A stretch of 64,000 bases of DNA from positions 1 to 64,000 of the forward strand of contig CAKTNW010000004.1 in the NCBI GenBank assembly GCA_934589145.1. The letters are read 5' to 3'. Every line of letters begins with the position of its first letter. Within the stretch, counting starts at the first letter, position 1. Below are positions 7,719 to 44,237 of the stretch, one piece after another. Both the position numbers and the translations under genes were made by a program. The notes under the pieces are model-generated. The model saw only the letters and a program-made list of their open reading frames with translations. It searched no databases and had not been told where the DNA came from. The stretch is from an uncultured Oscillospiraceae bacterium (lineage in GTDB: Bacteria; Bacillota; Clostridia; Oscillospirales; Oscillospiraceae).

Positions 7719-7730
7719 TACTTGTACATA

Positions 7731-8043
7731 GAAAGAAAACCCCACTATAGGCCGACTGACATAAGAAAACATACGGTTTTGCCTGTGCCTGTCCGGTTAA
7801 AATCACCCGCAAAAATTCCCGCATACGCCAGTATGTGGGAATCTTTTGCAGCCGATTTTCCCTCGAACTTGCTTTGGCAAAACTGCTTCGCACCAGAAAA
7901 GAGCGGATTTTGCGCAGGGCCAAGACGCGGCGCCGCGGGCATACTCGATGTCTGGCAAGGCGGCGCAACGCTGGATTCTGTGCAAAAGCCGCCTTTTATG
8001 GCGTGTGTTTCCTTGTGTCAGGCGGCCTTTGGGTTTTCTTTTC
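7731..8043 (+). terminator. acpP terminator split by an inserted element
   Basis: Seventeen bases after the acpP stop lies AGAAAACCC (7735-7743). Its exact complement GGGTTTTCT (8031-8039) sits nearly 290 bases later, followed by TTTC. Outer bases also pair loosely. Brought together, the arms would form an ordinary A-stem-T intrinsic terminator. The 278-bp element at 7750-8027 occupies the loop. Confidence 0.55.
7750..8027. mobile_element. Non-coding inverted-repeat element, copy 1 (MITE-like)
   Basis: The 278-bp block begins GGCCGACTGACATAAGAAAA and ends with the near inverse, CTTGTGTCAGGCGGCC, giving terminal inverted repeats of about 27 bp with a few mismatches. A second copy of 279 bp lies at 29287-29565. 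Blocks shared by both copies include CGGTTTTGCCTG, TTTTGCAGCCGATTTT, TTGGCAAAACTGC, TCGCACC, GAAAAGAG and GCGTGTGTTT. An internal hairpin (arms about 7816-7827 and 7832-7843) is present in both copies, with the second base pair from its tip side changed from T-A to A-T in a compensating way. No reading frame is shared. It could be a transposon-derived repeat moved by an enzyme encoded elsewhere, or a structured RNA; insertion into terminators favours the former. Confidence 0.7.
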
Positions 8044-8123
8044 GGAAATTTGCTTTGGGCCACCGCCCATGGGATCCACACCGTGGGATCCTGTGGGCGA
8101 CGGCCCGGAAAGGGATGGAAAGC

Positions 8124-8810
8124 ATGGAAACTTTACATCAACTGGAGGAGCGGCTGGGCTATCGCTTCAACGATCCGGAGCTGCTGCGGGGCGCGCTGTA
8201 CCACAGCTCCTACGCCAACGAGCACCGCAATATGGGCATCGCCAGCAACGAGCGGCTGGAGTTCCTGGGCGACGCGGTGCTGGGCTTCGTGTCGGCGGAC
8301 TTTCTGTACCGCAAGCATCCCGACCTGCCGGAGGGCGAGCTGACCCGCATCCGCGCCGCCCTGGTGTGCGAGGAGAGCCTGCACGAGGTGGCCCAGAGTC
8401 TGCGCCTGGGGGACTTCCTGCTGCTGGGCAAGGGCGAGGAGAGCGGCGGCGGCCGCCGCCGTCCGTCCATTCTGGCGGACGCGGTGGAGGCGGTGTTGGC
8501 CGCGGTGTATCTGGACGGCGGCATCGACAAGGCCCGTGCGCTGATCCATCGCATCCTGCTGGATAAGGAGCAGGAGGAGGTGGTGGAGAGCCGCCGCCGT
8601 GACTGCAAGACCGAGCTGCAGGAGCTGGTGCAGCGCAAGCCCAACCAGGTGCTGCACTATGAGCCGGTGTCCGAGAGCGGCCCGGATCACGCCAAGGTGT
8701 TCGCCGTGGCGGTGACGCTGAACGGCCAGGTCATCGGCCTGGGCTCCGGCCACAGCAAGAAGGAGGCGGAGCAGTCCGCCGCCCGCGCCGCATTGGAGCA
8801 GATGAAGTAA
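8124..8810 (+). CDS. rnc: Ribonuclease III
   Basis: Cuts double-stranded RNA in rRNA precursors and regulatory RNAs, and would process sense-antisense duplexes. The 228-residue protein carries the RNase III signature NERLEFLGDAVLGF with the metal-binding acidic residues, a second acidic helix (LADAVEAVLAAVYLDGG), and a C-terminal double-stranded-RNA-binding domain (about 155-226, DCKTELQELVQ ... KKEAEQSAARAALEQM). The ATG at 8124 is chosen because AAAGGG ends 9 bases upstream and the family normally starts here. Earlier in-frame codons reach back into the repeat element and are not part of the gene. Confidence 0.95.
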   Translation: METLHQLEERLGYRFNDPELLRGALYHSSYANEHRNMGIASNERLEFLGDAVLGFVSADFLYRKHPDLPEGELTRIRAALVCEESLHEVAQSLRLGDFLLLGKGEESGGGRRRPSILADAVEAVLAAVYLDGGIDKARALIHRILLDKEQEEVVESRRRDCKTELQELVQRKPNQVLHYEPVSESGPDHAKVFAVAVTLNGQVIGLGSGHSKKEAEQSAARAALEQMK

Positions 8811-39418: not shown

Positions 39419-40568
39419 CCGGAAACTGTTTCAGCAAACCTTCTCCGCGCTGCATGCCTCCCCTGACACACTTTCGGAGGTATATAAAGTGGTACGGAGA
39501 AATAAAAGACATCATACGATCACAAAAGGCATGCTGATCGCCGCGGTGCTGGCCATGTGCATCACGGTGGCGGGCGCGGTGGGCATCGCCACGCTGATCA
39601 AGGCCGATGTGGCCCCGGCGGACAGTATTACCGATGCCGACCGGAACGCCTTTGACAAGGATACCGTGGGCAGCGACACGCCCCTGGTGCTGGGCAACGA
39701 CGGCCAGCCCATCAGCCTGCCCCGGATGGAGCGCGCCTCCACCGACACGGCCACGGTGCAGCGCCTGCTGGGCGATTACCTCTGCACCGTGAACGCCACC
39801 ATGGAGGTGGACGGCTACACCATCAAGCTGAACACCTTCCTCATTGACGAGAACGGCTCCGGCTTTTTGACCTACACCCTGTCCAATCCCAACGGCGTTG
39901 AACCGGATGAAAACGGCTACGGCGAGGTGTATACACCCTTGGATCCCTGGCTGATCATCGGCGATGACCCGAAGAGCTTCGACTATATGGACGCCAAGAC
40001 CTATCTGGACACCGCCGCCACCACCGACACGGAGATGCATTTGGTGCTGTATTTCAGCGACTTCGGCTATTGGCACAAGGGGGATGACCTGATCTTCGCG
40101 GTGAAGCCCCAGCGTGCCGGAGACGATCCCGATACGCAGACATGGGGCGGCAGCATCAGCATTTCGCCCATCGCCTATCTGCCTGTGACCACCTTTACCA
40201 GCGAAAATGGCAGCACGGTGTCGGTCTCCGCGCTGGGTATGCGGGTGAACGCCCCTGCTGATATCACCAATCAGATCAGCGACGTGAACACCAAAGAGCT
40301 GGTGCTGCACATGAAGGACGGCAGCCACTTTGCGGTGGAAAGCGACCGCGAGAACGTCATGAACTGGGTGGTGGGTCTCGGCACGGTGGATGAGAACCAC
40401 GATGCCAACGGCCTGGGCTTCAGCTTCAACCGGCTGGTGGACGTGGACGAGATCGAATCTGTCACCGCTGAGGGATATACGATGGTCTTCCTGACGCCCT
40501 TCACAGGCCTTGAGGATAAGATGCCTGATACGGAGGACATCAACTTCAATTACACCTATACGCGGTGA
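39411..40568 (+). CDS. Membrane-anchored anti-sigma factor candidate (DUF4179-like)
   Basis: A 385-residue protein with a short cytoplasmic segment (about 1-42) containing RKLFQQTFSALHASPDTLSEV, one membrane helix (about 43-66, GMLIAAVLAMCITVAGAVGI) and a large outside domain of beta-rich character (about 70-385). This layout, and the 8-base overlap with the sigma gene, is that of clostridial one-pass anti-sigma proteins: the inside segment would hold the sigma factor and the outside domain would sense the stress. The stress is unknown. Confidence 0.8.
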   Translation: MIDRKLFQQTFSALHASPDTLSEVYKVVRRNKRHHTITKGMLIAAVLAMCITVAGAVGIATLIKADVAPADSITDADRNAFDKDTVGSDTPLVLGNDGQPISLPRMERASTDTATVQRLLGDYLCTVNATMEVDGYTIKLNTFLIDENGSGFLTYTLSNPNGVEPDENGYGEVYTPLDPWLIIGDDPKSFDYMDAKTYLDTAATTDTEMHLVLYFSDFGYWHKGDDLIFAVKPQRAGDDPDTQTWGGSISISPIAYLPVTTFTSENGSTVSVSALGMRVNAPADITNQISDVNTKELVLHMKDGSHFAVESDRENVMNWVVGLGTVDENHDANGLGFSFNRLVDVDEIESVTAEGYTMVFLTPFTGLEDKMPDTEDINFNYTYTR

Positions 40569-40607
40569 GGGCCGCGCGGTGACGCGCTGCGGTGTCGTTG
40601 ATGCGTT

Positions 40608-40691
40608 GTAGGGGCGGACGACTCTGTCGGCCCGCTGGTTTACGATGGCAGCTCCGATATGCGGCGGGGCGATGTGGGCATCGCCCCCTAC
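40608..40691. repeat. GTAGGGG-type intergenic repeat, copy D
   Basis: The 84-bp unit starts GTAGGGGCGG and ends GCCCCCTAC. Its right half (about 40640-40691) is the reverse complement of the unit at 8842-8893, including GATGTGGGCATCGCCCCCTA and CGATGGCAGCTCCGATATGC. Two hairpins flank the central GATGGCA-GCTCCG segment. Confidence 0.72.
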
Positions 40692-40789
40692 GAAAAGTTT
40701 ACCAATGAATTCCCCCGCCCCATGAAACAAAACCGGCCCCTGGCGCGTTATATCCCACAGAGACAGAATCCCACAGAAGGAGAGCGGCC

Positions 40790-41578
40790 ATGTACACAGA
40801 ATATCTATCCCAACAGGAGGCACCCCGGGAAGCGCCATCCCGGCAGGCGCCGCCCCCGCGCCGTGCCGCGCCCCGGCGGCGCGATCCCCGGCGGGACAGG
40901 CAGCGGCGGATGCTGCTGGCCCTGGCGGCGCTGGTGCTGTTCCTGGCGGGCTTCATCTCCGGCTGCTGCGTGGGCCGCGGCCGCAGCGGCGGCGCTGAAA
41001 ACGGCGGCGAGGGGAGCGGCACCGGCGGCGTAGGGACTGCCGTCAAGCCGCAGAAGAGCAACATCCCCGCCAGCATCACCCTGCCGGACTATGTGAAGGA
41101 GGATCTGCTGCCGGTGAATGAGTACTCCCGCTGCGGCGACAAGCTCCAACGGGTCAACGCCGTGGTGATCCACTATGTGGGCAACCCCAACACCACCGCC
41201 TGGCAGAACCGCTCCTATTTCGAGAATCTGGCCACCAGCGGCGAGACCTCCGCCAGCAGCAACCTCATCGTGGGCCTGGATGGCGAGGCGCTGCTGTGTG
41301 TGCCGCTGGACGAGGTGGCCTATTGCTCCAACGACCGGAACTACGACACCGTGTCCATCGAGTTCTGCCATCCCGACGCCGAGGGCAAGCCCAACCAGGC
41401 CACCTATGACACGCTGGTGAAGCTGACGGCGTGGCTGTGCGATCTGTACGGACTGGACGCCAGGGAGGGCGTCATCCGCCACTACGACGTGACCGGCAAG
41501 CAGTGCCCTATGTACTTCGTGCAGAACGCCGCGGAGTGGACGCAGTTCCAGTCCGACGTGGCTAAGGCTATGAAATAG
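40790..41578 (+). CDS. Membrane-anchored N-acetylmuramoyl-L-alanine amidase (Amidase_2/PGRP fold)
   Basis: Cleaves the bond between muramic acid and the stem peptide of peptidoglycan. The 262-residue protein has a basic, Pro/Arg-rich cytoplasmic tail (about 1-39), one membrane anchor (about 41-62) and a Gly-rich linker. The amidase domain (about 95-262) has zinc ligands in AVVIHYVGN and in IRHYDVTGKQCP (His...Cys). TSASSNLIVGLDG and FCHPDAEGKPN are family signatures. AAGGAG precedes the ATG. It may act in sporulation or germination, but nothing in the sequence fixes this. Confidence 0.92.
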   Translation: MYTEYLSQQEAPREAPSRQAPPPRRAAPRRRDPRRDRQRRMLLALAALVLFLAGFISGCCVGRGRSGGAENGGEGSGTGGVGTAVKPQKSNIPASITLPDYVKEDLLPVNEYSRCGDKLQRVNAVVIHYVGNPNTTAWQNRSYFENLATSGETSASSNLIVGLDGEALLCVPLDEVAYCSNDRNYDTVSIEFCHPDAEGKPNQATYDTLVKLTAWLCDLYGLDAREGVIRHYDVTGKQCPMYFVQNAAEWTQFQSDVAKAMK

Positions 41579-41633
41579 CAGGAATAGCAGAAATAGCAGG
41601 AATAACAAAAGAGGCGGCCAAGCCGCCTCTTTT
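41574..41633 (+). terminator. Short tandem repeat and terminator after the amidase gene
   Basis: A 9-base unit, AATAGCAGG/A, repeats about three and a half times over the stop codon and beyond (41574-41605). Directly after it lies a terminator, AAAAGAGGCGGC (41607-41618) with its complement (41622-41633) and loop CAA. Confidence 0.85.
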
Positions 41634-41665
41634 GGGGGTTATAACAAAGATTTCAACCAAAAGCG

Positions 41666-41694
41666 TTGACAAAAAGCAATAATTACGATACGAT
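41666..41694 (+). promoter_or_regulatory. Promoter of the small-peptide gene
   Basis: TTGACA (41666-41671), 17 bases, TACGAT (41689-41694). It would give a leader of about 63 bases with a hairpin (41739-41760) that pairs the ribosome site AGGAGG with upstream CCTCC. Confidence 0.75.
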
Positions 41695-41764
41695 TGTTCG
41701 TGCAAGGGTATTACATAAACATTGCGGGGCGGTGGCCTGATCTCCTCCGGAAGGAGGTGATATC

Positions 41765-41848
41765 ATGCCTGTCACGTTGACCTTTCATTTGTTTGGATTC
41801 GTCTTTACATTGAAGATCAAACGCGAAAACCGCCACCCTGGCCGGTGA
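41765..41848 (+). CDS. 27-residue hydrophobic peptide, candidate type I toxin
   Basis: A very short gene with an ideal AAGGAGGTGAT ribosome site. The peptide starts MPVTLTFHLFGFVFTLK and ends in a basic tail with ENRHPGR: one hydrophobic stretch of about 14 residues followed by charged residues, the pattern of membrane-acting type I toxins. Its ribosome site is sealed in a hairpin with loop GGAA, its last codons form the terminator stem, and a consensus promoter on the other strand points back into it. I do not know a named family for it. Alternative readings are a regulatory leader peptide or a small membrane-protein modulator. Confidence 0.6.
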   Translation: MPVTLTFHLFGFVFTLKIKRENRHPGR

Positions 41849-41856
41849 CGGTTTTC
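41825..41856. terminator. Hairpin at the end of the small-peptide gene
   Basis: GAAAACCG (41825-41832) pairs with CGGTTTTC (41849-41856), and CACC with GGTG inside, separated by one C-A mismatch. It overlaps the last eight codons and could end both the peptide message and the opposing RNA. Confidence 0.7.
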
Positions 41857-41912
41857 TTGAATAACTAAGAAAATTGATCCTGACAGGTCAACCGCTCTGC
41901 GGTAGTACCCTT
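41825..41912 (-). ncRNA. Predicted antisense RNA opposite the small-peptide gene
   Basis: The leftward promoter at 41946-41919 would start an RNA near 41912 that runs through a small hairpin (CCGC-AGA-GCGG) and the shared terminator hairpin at 41856-41825. Overlap with the peptide message would be its last 80 or so bases. No reading frame with a ribosome site is seen in it. The ends are predicted, not observed. Confidence 0.5.
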
Positions 41913-41918
41913 GCTTAT

Positions 41919-41946
41919 ATTATACCGTTTTTCCGTGGATTGTCAA
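41919..41946 (-). promoter_or_regulatory. Consensus promoter facing the small-peptide gene
   Basis: Leftward, perfect TTGACA (41946-41941), 16 bases, perfect TATAAT (41924-41919). It lies after the end of the alarmone synthetase gene, so it cannot drive that gene, and there is no other leftward gene before the amidase. Confidence 0.85.
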
Positions 41947-41961
41947 GAGTGGGTGCATGTA

Positions 41962-42648
41962 TCAGTCCTCATACTCCGGGGCCTTGCCCTGGTAGATGTT
42001 CTGCATCTCGCGATCCACCTCGTAGATGGCGTCGCTGCACAGCCGCAGGCGGTTGCTCTCCGCCGGGCCCCAGTGCCGGTCGGACTTATACCGCAGCTCG
42101 TGCTCCAGGCTGGCCCACATGTCCATGGCGATGGTGCGCAGCTGGATCTCCACCGGCAGCTTCAGCGTCCCCTCGGAGATGACGATGGGCACCTCTACGA
42201 TCAGGTGCAGGCTGCGATAGCCGGTCTCCTTGGGCTCCTTGATATAGTCGGCCTCGCGGATGACGCGGAAGGACTCCGTCCGGGTCAGCAGGCTCCGCAG
42301 ATAGTAGATGTCGTCCAGATAGTTGCAGATGACCCGCACGCCCGCCATGTCCTGGATGTGGGCGTAGATGTTGTCGATGGTCAGGTCATAGCCCCGGCGC
42401 TTCAGCTTTTTGGCGGCGCTCTCCAGTGTCTTGATGCGGTGCTCGATGTGGTGAATGGGGGAGTGGTCGTACAGGCTGGCGAATTCCTCGTCCAGGATCT
42501 CCATCTGGGTCACGGCGATCTTCAGCGCACTGCGGTACAGGTGCTTCACCCGTACCATCCCGGCGGCCATCTCCTTTATTTCCGGCGTCAGCTCCTCGGC
42601 GATGGAAATATCCCGCAGCTCGATGCTGCCGCTTTTTTCGATCATCAT
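41962..42648 (-). CDS. Small alarmone synthetase (RelA/SpoT-domain GTP pyrophosphokinase)
   Basis: Makes (p)ppGpp from ATP and GTP or GDP. The 228-residue protein consists only of the synthetase domain of the YjbM/YwaC (SAS) group, lacking hydrolase and regulatory domains. Visible family parts are HHIEHRIKTLESAAKKLKR, the G-loop region DMAGVRVICNYLDDIY, KETGYRSLHLIVEVP and VEIQLRTIAMDMWASLEHE with the catalytic Glu. The ATG at 42648 follows AAGGAG. Its promoter has a perfect -10. It lies beside the candidate toxin-antitoxin locus and the tRNA used by the integrated element, a stress-related neighbourhood, though a functional link is only inferred. Confidence 0.93.
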   Translation of the reverse strand: MMIEKSGSIELRDISIAEELTPEIKEMAAGMVRVKHLYRSALKIAVTQMEILDEEFASLYDHSPIHHIEHRIKTLESAAKKLKRRGYDLTIDNIYAHIQDMAGVRVICNYLDDIYYLRSLLTRTESFRVIREADYIKEPKETGYRSLHLIVEVPIVISEGTLKLPVEIQLRTIAMDMWASLEHELRYKSDRHWGPAESNRLRLCSDAIYEVDREMQNIYQGKAPEYED

Positions 42649-42679
42649 AGGCGCACTCCTTCTATCCTCATTGTTAAAT

Positions 42680-42708
42680 ATTATACTATGTGCGGTCGGG
42701 GAACGCAA
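42680..42708 (-). promoter_or_regulatory. Promoter of the alarmone synthetase gene
   Basis: Leftward TTGCGT (42708-42703), 17 bases, perfect TATAAT (42685-42680). Confidence 0.75.
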
Positions 42709-42745
42709 GTCAATAAAAATTGCCGCTTTTTTCTGTTTTGCACTA

Positions 42746-42773
42746 TTGACAAATGGCAAAAGTTTGATATAAT
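42746..42773 (+). promoter_or_regulatory. Promoter of tRNA-Ser
   Basis: Perfect TTGACA (42746-42751), 16 bases, perfect TATAAT (42768-42773), about 33 bases before the tRNA. Confidence 0.88.
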
Positions 42774-42806
42774 AAATGATGCTGTGCTTCGCAGCGAATT
42801 GAATAT

Positions 42807-42898
42807 GCAGTGGTATCGAAGAGGTCATAACGAGCACGACTGGAAATCGTGTTGTCGTCAAAAGCGGCACGAGGGTTCGAATCCCTCCCACTGCGCCA
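42807..42898 (+). tRNA. tRNA-Ser (GGA anticodon)
   Basis: A class II tRNA of 92 bases with encoded CCA. The acceptor stem GCAGTGG pairs with CCACTGC. The anticodon stem CACGA/TCGTG encloses the loop CTGGAAA (anticodon GGA, reading UCC and UCU). A long variable arm is present, as expected for serine, and the T arm is GAGGG-TTCGAAT-CCCTC. The last 23 bases form one end of the attachment site of the integrated element, which has restored the tRNA. Confidence 0.95.
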
Positions 42899-42949
42899 AC
42901 GGAAAAGTCCCGAAAACACAAGGTTTTCGGGACTTTTTGCTATGCGGAT
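42876..42949. repeat. Left attachment site (attL), 74-bp direct repeat
   Basis: The 74 bases from TTCGAATCCCTCCCACTGCG to GCTATGCGGAT are repeated exactly at 50124-50197. They cover the end of the T arm, the acceptor stem and CCA of tRNA-Ser plus its complete terminator (stem 42903-42917 with 42923-42937, then T5). Such a long perfect identity suggests a recent insertion. Confidence 0.95.
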
Positions 42950-42977
42950 TTGGGGCGTTCACCCTTTATTTCCCCCT

Positions 42978-44237
42978 TTACAGGTTTCGGACGCCCTTGA
43001 TGTAGGATTCCATGCGGGCGGCGCTGGCCTGTTTCATCTGGTCGGTGACGTGGCCGTACACGTCCAGGGTGAAAGCTGCCGTTGCGTGGCCCAGGTTTCC
43101 CTGTACCGTCTTGATATCATCACCGGAGCGGATAGCAGCCACGGCGTAGCTGTGGCGCAGATCGTGAAAGCGGGCATCAGGGCGGCCGATGCTGGCCACG
43201 ATCCGCTTGAACTTCTTCGTGACTGTCCAGGACACCAGGTGCCCGCCGATCTCGTTGGTGAACACGTACCCGGCGGGATTGTCCCACAGCTCACCGGCCC
43301 GGAGCTGCCAGGCGGTCTGCTGCTTGCGGTGCTGCCGCAGCAGTTCCATGATGGAGGGCGCGGGCGTGATGGTGCGGGGCTTGTCGTTCTTCAAGGGCAC
43401 AAGTCGGTACTGGCCGCCGGGCTTCTTCTCCCGCTGGAGCTGCTGCTTTATCAGGATCGTACCGGCGGCGAAGTCTACACAGGGCCACGTCAGGCCCAGC
43501 ACTTCGCCCTCACGCATACCGGTGAACAGCGTCACCGTATACAGCGTTTCGAACTCGTGGCCCCGGATGGCTTCCAGAAAGGCCCGCGTTTCCCGCTCGT
43601 CTAAGGGGTGCAGCTCTGGCCGCTCGACACGGGGCAGGGTACAGGCATCCGCCGGATTAAAGCGTATCAGACCGGCGGCTATGGCCTGCTGCAAGGCCTT
43701 GTGGAGTACCCCGTGGATGTTCTTGATGGTCTTAGGGGACAGGGGCGCGGCCTCGTACACAATGCGCCCGCCGCGCCTGACAATCTCGCCCGCCTGGTTC
43801 CGCTTCGGCACCTGCTGGCCGGTCTTGGCAAGCTGGTTGTAAAACTGCTGAATGGTGGGGGTGTCCAGAGCCTCCAGGCGTACCGCGCCGATGGCGGGCT
43901 TGATGTGGTTGGCGATCTGTGTCTTGTAGGAGACCACCGTGTGAGGCTTGACGCCGCCCAGGTAGGTATCTGCTCAGGTGTCCATCCACTGGCCCACCGT
44001 CTGTTTGCTGGGGGCTATGTAGGTGCCGCTGTCGATGGACGTCACCACCGCCGCCAGCTTCTGCGATACCTCCCGCTGTGTCTTGCCGGTGATGGTGCGC
44101 TGCACCTGCTTGCCGGTGCCTGGATCACGTCCGGCGGTGTACCGCGCCTCCCACCACTCGTATTTCTTGCCGGTCTTTTTATCGACCTTGGTTTTCTTCC
44201 TGATGTTGCCCATGCCACGCGCATTTCTCCCGGCCAT
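42978..44237 (-). pseudogene. int: Tyrosine recombinase (integrase) interrupted by an in-frame TGA
   Basis: The reading frame encodes 419 residues of a Tn916/phage-type integrase. It has an N-terminal AP2-like arm-binding part (about 10-60, KYEWWEARYTAGRDPGTGKQ), a SAM-like core-binding domain (about 85-180) and a catalytic domain with Arg in FTGMREGEVLGL, HDLRHSYA, the GNLGHAT histidine and the final Tyr in TLDVYGHV. All catalytic residues are present. Codon 88 (43976-43974) is TGA where the context QWMDT-stop-ADTYLGG strongly suggests a former TGG (Trp). Both sides stay in the same frame. Either the enzyme is dead, or an internal start or readthrough gives activity. The start ATG at 44237 follows AAAGGAG. 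Confidence 0.88.

Follow-up and report, generated by a model that had tools for sequence, protein, structure and literature searches.

A widespread two-RNA unit of Oscillospiraceae resembles type I toxin-antitoxin modules

The unit and the closest described systems

The described systems closest to the locus reported here are type I toxin-antitoxin (TA) modules. In the par/Fst module of pAD1 (RNA I and RNA II), the account in PMC7472228 gives convergent promoters, a shared bidirectional terminator, a Shine-Dalgarno (SD) sequence in a stem-loop and a small antisense RNA; complementary terminator loops start the pairing of the RNAs, and the direct repeats DRa and DRb add another complementary stretch, at the initiation site (PMC7472228). 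For aapA3, a full-length mRNA of 225 nucleotides (nt) and translation of a form without its last 35 nt are reported (PMC6733600). The C. difficile type I toxins described in PMC6563280 have 34-59 residues and a transmembrane (TM) domain, and the membrane type I toxins covered by PMC8309996 are alpha-helical. Here we analysed the first 64,000 nt of contig CAKTNW010000004.1 (the window), from an uncultured Oscillospiraceae bacterium. At 41666-41946 it carries a 281-nt unit with two convergent promoters, a hairpin-locked SD, an open reading frame (ORF) of 27 codons and a shared hairpin. This element is one copy of a widespread two-RNA unit that probably works as a type I TA-like module.

An initial annotation, made from the letters of the window, had described a rightward TTGACA/TACGAT promoter, an AGGAGG locked in a hairpin, a fully consensus leftward promoter and a shared terminator; both promoters, the locked SD and a shared hairpin were found. 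The sense promoter (41666-41694, plus strand) has its -35 box, TTGACA, at 41666-41671 and its -10 box, TACGAT, at 41689-41694, with a spacing of 17 and 10 of the 12 consensus positions; the sense RNA is predicted to start near 41702. Its 5' leader (41702-41738, plus) is followed by the SD-pairing hairpin ATCTCCTCC-GGAA-GGAGGTGAT (41740-41761, plus), which holds GGAGG in its 3' arm, and by the ORF for the peptide MPVTLTFHLFGFVFTLKIKRENRHPGR (41765-41848, plus). The 3' end of the ORF overlaps the shared hairpin, GAAAACCGCCACC...GGTGACGGTTTTC, whose arms lie at 41825-41837 and 41844-41856 and which would serve both strands. The antisense promoter (41919-41946, minus strand) matches the consensus in 12 of 12 positions (TTGACA at 41946-41941, spacing 16, TATAAT at 41924-41919). 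The antisense RNA predicted from it, with a start near 41912-41914 and an end at the shared hairpin, would measure about 90 nt (41820-41912, minus). Finally, the stretch 41886-41914 (plus) is the right arm of a helix, hereafter the closing helix, whose left arm is the sense leader; its opposite strand corresponds to the 5' leader of the antisense RNA. Comparison with the relatives described below establishes the coding ORF, the promoter pair, the SD hairpin and a covarying closing helix, and in this way gives strong support to a type I TA-like reading of the predicted convergent transcripts with their locked ribosome-binding site (RBS).

The unit shares with par/Fst and with the chromosomal par-like loci the convergent promoters, the T-rich shared hairpin, the short peptide, the SD in a stem-loop and a predicted small antisense RNA. 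It differs from par/Fst in that its arms are inverted, so that both leaders are alike and not complementary. Direct repeats of the par kind were considered and rejected, their scores being at background (own 14.8 versus other 14.3, p 0.2). The Fst family was absent from Pfam searches with the window peptide (E up to 10) and with 52 peptides of the family (E up to 1). With hok/sok and aapA/IsoA, the unit shares a predicted closure of the message between its 5' and 3' ends, in a read-through form of about 212 nt; its 5' leader and 3' arm are predicted to pair and they covary, a control feature of the hok or aapA kind. In contrast to these two systems, the antisense gene of the unit is convergent at the 3' end and carries a leader that duplicates the sense one, the SD lies in a local hairpin of the predicted fold, and the peptide is predicted to be beta and not alpha. 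Unlike the type I pairs of C. difficile, the unit encodes peptides mostly of 25-30 residues, predicted to form a beta-hairpin, and adds the covarying closing helix. The absence of a predicted TM helix likewise separates this modelled beta-hairpin from the membrane type I toxins reviewed.

The initial annotation had called the locus txpA/bsrG-like. The likeness to txpA/RatA and bsrG/SR4 applies to the layout only; the peptide fold, the families and the closing helix of the hok/aapA kind do not fit. The peptides gave no Pfam match at cut-off and, for the five tried, no NCBIfam match, in libraries whose coverage of each of these toxins was not checked. We place the unit in the type I kind but outside any named family, and the family is apparently undescribed, judged from searches of one open literature library.

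A conserved short peptide and its antisense promoter

By a profile search over the fetched loci we recovered 130 usable non-identical copies, mainly from Oscillospiraceae, with 114 different peptides at 118 loci. Note that these copies are not all independent finds, since 52 of their peptides went into the profile. Two main classes of peptide were seen, MRITLHIGxFTVTIIVKxRNRHSxK and MPITxTFHIxxxTVTIxVKxRNRHSAK. The ratio of nonsynonymous to synonymous differences (pN/pS) was 0.14 in the 25-residue class (743 pairs), 0.14 in the 26-residue class (19 pairs), 0.30 in the 27-residue class (265 pairs) and 0.34 in the 30-residue class (5 pairs), and ranged from 1.4 to 2.9 when the 25- and 27-residue classes were read in their two alternative frames. 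Because of the ratios of 0.14-0.34 in the coding frame, comparison of the copies indicates that the peptide is a real gene under purifying selection. The 84-nt ORF of the window peptide is under the minimum gene length of common gene callers.

The peptide had been described initially as one hydrophobic stretch with a basic tail. The tail held, and the stretch is better read as two alternating beta strands, a feature missed at first, as were the matching 5' leaders of the two RNAs (see below). In support of this, the mean hydrophobic moment at 180 degrees was 0.74 in the 39 peptides of the 27-residue class, compared to 0.29 ± 0.15 in shuffled peptides, and the helix-type moment at 100 degrees was 0.23, compared to 0.33. 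AlphaFold2, run on the window peptide with a 50-row alignment, returned a two-stranded hairpin with strands at residues 3-9 and 12-18 (predicted local distance difference test, pLDDT, of 92 over model residues 11-20 and 79 on average; predicted template modelling score 0.34). For a 32-residue relative modelled without an alignment, strands were placed at 3-11 and 14-22 with a mean pLDDT of 71. The peptide is therefore predicted to be an amphipathic beta-hairpin with a basic tail. If it is toxic, the folds of membrane type I toxins would widen from alpha-helical peptides to beta-hairpins.

The RNRHS/P tail is encoded by the shared hairpin. Since in some copies (L001, L011 and L041) the ORF stops ahead of the tail, the tail is dispensable and the shared hairpin appears to be kept at the nucleic acid level, the latter point being weakened by the use of this hairpin as the search pattern for most of those loci.

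That the peptide is unlike known toxins, as initially suggested, agrees with the library searches. In Pfam, the window peptide gave no family at E up to 10, and none of the 52 peptides reached a family cut-off, with seven families matching weakly (best E 0.019) and the matches viewed lying below cut-off. Five peptides searched against NCBIfam and PADLOC gave no match; one of five weakly matched two PHROGs families of unknown function (best E 0.011). A fold search of the PDB at E up to 10 listed 93 matches, none of them reaching E 0.001, as expected for a hairpin of 30 residues. At the RNA level, a search of 15 loci against Rfam returned at gathering score only group II intron parts in L133, the matches over and beside the element being far under their cut-offs. 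Thus none of the Pfam, NCBIfam, PADLOC and Rfam models tried covers the element. The best of the weak Pfam matches was to Bac_small_YrzI (PF09501), below threshold, from 5 of the 52 peptides (alignment A2; best E 0.019). The match that we viewed spans a 12-residue stretch with 13.9 bits against a cut-off of 23, in a family model of 45 positions. A relation to this family is a lead only, and a literature search on YrzI gave nothing of use for the peptide.

The leftward promoter was the most constant partner of the peptide across the copies compared. Among copies that came mainly from the hairpin pattern, 98 of 104 had an antisense promoter with at least 10 of the 12 consensus positions, as did all 25 found by the peptide alone, compared to 1.8% in shuffles. 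A sense promoter of at least 9/12 accompanied 62/104 and 21/25 of the same copies (shuffles, 7.0% and 7.6%). In 98 of 130 copies the antisense promoter had the higher score of the two, in 7 it had the lower, and in 25 they tied. An antisense RNA gene overlapping the peptide mRNA is thus predicted from the conservation of its promoter.

We then sorted 120 hairpin-pattern sites, a tally that leaves out six loci from unrelated phyla, eight sites near contig ends, the loci from L129 on and the window. Peptide and antisense promoter occurred together at 97 sites, the antisense promoter alone at 14, the peptide alone at 7 and neither at 2. Three of the 14 antisense-alone sites (L063, L093 and L128) show a divergent peptide ORF by eye, leaving 11 solo antisense units, three of which (L004, L045 and L048) adjoin a full element. 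An excess of solo antisense units is the pattern expected if the peptide without the antisense RNA is costly and the reverse is not, although the seven peptide-alone sites run counter to it. That these units act in trans as anti-addiction copies is one part of a reading that, taken jointly, we put forward only tentatively and hold somewhat doubtful. Antisense-only units without a recognised peptide ORF were noted at L004 (around 2003), L045, L048 and L069, some of them arranged in tandem with a complete element.

RNA structures and a model for control of the message

The SD hairpin is conserved, with a stem of at least 6 pairs in 119 of the 130 relatives and the SD in its 3' arm in 120. The shared hairpin is followed by at least 5 T in the next 8 nt on the sense side in 95 of 120 cases and on the antisense side in 68 of 120 (background 7%), a composition that makes it a probable bidirectional terminator; a terminator scan of the window did not list the hairpin at 41825-41856. 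The leftward RNA predicted for the window folds better than its own shuffles (z -4.3).

The two predicted RNAs of the window start almost identically, with GCAAGGGTATTAC and GCAAGGGTACTAC, which form the inverted repeat 41702-41714/41902-41914 and differ by one mismatch in the first 13 nt. This likeness holds within elements: the mean score of a sense leader against its own antisense leader was 28.9, compared to 19.2 against those of other elements, and the highest of 2000 permutations was 20.6. In 84 de-duplicated copies the values were 28.0 and 19.0. The own partner was the single best in 19 of 130 copies (21 of 84 de-duplicated), where about 1 was expected. Two distant copies, L168 and L175, have in the antisense leader an extra CCTCCTTTC stretch, absent from the matching sense leader, which could pair with an SD.

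Read as one RNA, the leader and the 3' arm form the closing helix. In an alignment (A6) of 56 of the 61 references, 92.0% of the cells were paired, compared to 82.6% after shuffling and 35-55% when the helix was slid, and double-change cells numbered 89 versus 21.2 ± 3.8 in shuffles. Note that the shuffle-based figures are inflated by relatedness; the slid control is less affected, but it is biased towards the helix, since the structure was derived from the consensus of the same sequences. Five references (L106, L050, L150, L052 and L156) were dropped from this alignment for long insertions, runs of N or an irregular start, and the irregular rows L101, L121 and L091 were retained. Folding was compared in 80 de-duplicated copies, drawn from the 124 (of 130) whose antisense promoter scores 10/12 or more. 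In 75 of the 80, the closing helix was predicted more strongly with its own arm than on average with six foreign arms, and in 52 more strongly than with any of the six. Its energy was lower as sense RNA than as the complement in 72 of the 80 (chimeras 67%, p 3e-8), and one of its pairs is G-U in 48 of the 56 aligned sequences, a pair that a repeat maintained at the DNA level has no reason to keep. Given the covariation, the sense-strand energy and the kept G-U pair, the arms look selected as sense-strand RNA. A count of strand-asymmetric mismatches (358 sense-compatible and 183 antisense-compatible transitions) was set aside in favour of the energy test with chimeras, because most of its excess fell in one class (G/A) and antisense leaders are generally A-enriched.

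In the module that we favour, for which toxicity, the two transcripts, read-through and antisense repression are inferred, the weaker rightward promoter would give the mRNA for the short amphipathic beta-hairpin peptide. The stronger leftward promoter would give a short antisense RNA, overlapping this mRNA in its 3' part at the shared hairpin. The SD hairpin would first hold translation down while the message is made. Should transcription run past the shared hairpin, the 5' leader would pair with its own 3' arm and close the mRNA end to end; in the predicted fold of the window's read-through RNA, the SD stays in its local hairpin. Since the antisense RNA would be the exact complement of the 3' arm and would bear the same leader, it would compete with the cis leader and could displace it, and the resulting duplex would be cut by RNase III. 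Pairing could start at the loops of the shared hairpin, by analogy with the terminator loops of par/Fst, and termination at this hairpin could yield a short translatable mRNA, as proposed by analogy with aapA3 lacking its 3' end. Upon loss of the antisense RNA the peptide would be made, probably acting at membranes. The end-to-end helix and the mimicry of leaders would then bear on how such mRNAs stay silent. As the initial annotation had noted, rnc lies elsewhere in the window: an open frame at 7719-8810 carries the signature NERLEFLGD and so probably encodes RNase III.

Several results weigh against this module. The sense RNA of the window up to the shared hairpin has no clear extra stability over shuffles (z -1.5). 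The TM helix of membrane type I toxins is absent from the peptide, for which the models give the two-strand hairpin instead. The closing helix requires transcription to run through the shared hairpin, whose sense side is T-rich in the 95 of 120 cases counted above, and 7 of the 104 peptide copies at hairpin-pattern sites, some of them visibly truncated, have no scored antisense promoter. In addition, the 5' part of the antisense RNA pairs with the sense RBS of its own element no better than with those of other elements (-32.6 versus -32.9 kcal/mol, p 0.6). These predicted energies speak against a direct block of the RBS by the antisense RNA; the translation block is therefore not explained by the sequence, and one has to assume that it acts through the 3' end.

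The data on promoters, helix and coding would fit equally well a peptide that is not toxic, whose beta-hairpin acts as a regulator by adding a strand to, or sitting on, a host protein or a membrane, and whose antisense RNA only sets its level. The strong conservation of the hairpin pattern in the peptides and the lack of a predicted TM helix would suit such a regulator. We regard it as unlikely, since the patchy spread and the many unrelated sites reported below favour an addiction- or mobile-type module, and both the absence of the unit beside relA homologues and the solo antisense units argue against a housekeeping regulator.

Distribution and genomic setting

Scanning the genome collection for the hairpin pattern gave at least 120 stretches. 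Among the matches listed, most were from Oscillospiraceae, Ruminococcaceae, Clostridia or unnamed bacteria, some from Lachnospiraceae and six from unrelated phyla; F. prausnitzii ATCC 27768 was included. With a profile of 52 peptides, 31 of the 150 genomes in the family of Evtepia gabavorous (genome G001) had members; with a 50-row profile, 15 of 295 genomes of its order and 6 of 398 of its phylum did. The maximum was 10 profile matches in one genome, the weakest of them close to the cut-off. With up to ten matches per genome, a coding and antisense pair that has gone unannotated would be common in commensals. A blastn search of annotated records of phages and plasmids recovered the unit, whole or in part, from three faecal phage contigs, with 69%, 35% and 10% of the query covered. 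The Vescimonas fastidiosa replicon NZ_AP023416 also carries a portion of it and has 8 hairpin-pattern matches.

The DNA similarity between copies is confined to the unit. In the comparison that followed a first count with a 500-nt limit, 117 of the 130 copies had at least 500 nt of flank on both sides. Of 2759 cross-locus pairs, 2745 lost their similarity no more than 180 nt from the ORF on either side, as did 568 of the 580 pairs that are at least 80% identical. Among the 112 of 129 copies with an ORF on both sides, 49 have the downstream ORF on the sense strand and 63 have it on the opposite one. From 300 genomes we fetched 10 relA homologues, 48-79% identical, with about 1.5 kb of flank per side, and the unit was beside none of them. 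The confined similarity, the varied neighbours and the absence beside relA homologues therefore suggest that the unit is most likely discrete and often gained and lost, as type I modules are.

The ORF is short and ends in a hairpin that is T-rich on its 3' side, which could also recall the leader peptide or attenuator of a neighbouring gene, and conservation only as such a leader had been named initially as a finding that would overturn the TA reading. The orientation of the downstream ORFs and the end of the similarity before the neighbours led us to reject it; moreover, the unit nearly always has its own antisense promoter. We give this explanation almost no weight.

In 11 of the 118 loci (L050, L106, L142, L144 and seven others), two peptide-bearing copies lie on the same strand at most 600 nt apart. 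Such pairs, together with the confined similarity and the inverted repeat formed by the arms, would be in line with a miniature mobile element whose arms are transposon ends and whose promoter and peptide are secondary. However, the arms lie inside the two promoters and not at the ends of the unit, their pairing keeps the sense-strand G-U and is better as sense RNA, and the peptide is under purifying selection, all of which makes a mobile element very improbable next to a type I-like module. In one locus (L133, 91-1816) the element is flanked by two group II intron parts that Rfam recognises, and may sit inside an intron.

In the window, the unit has a G+C content of 44%, compared to 61% for the whole stretch, and is flanked by an Amidase_2 gene (40790-41578, plus) and a RelA_SpoT gene (41962-42921, minus). 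A scan of 40500-43000 found 5 promoter-like sites, one of them an alternative -10 of the leftward promoter, compared to 1.2 ± 1.1 in shuffles. With Rfam, only a tRNA in the window reached gathering score. A second fully consensus promoter (42746-42773, plus) lies 33 nt upstream of the tRNA gene at 42807-42895, to which it most likely belongs. This tRNA adjoins a phage-type integrase on the opposite strand, the two together spanning 42807-43937, and an integrated element probably begins right beside the locus.
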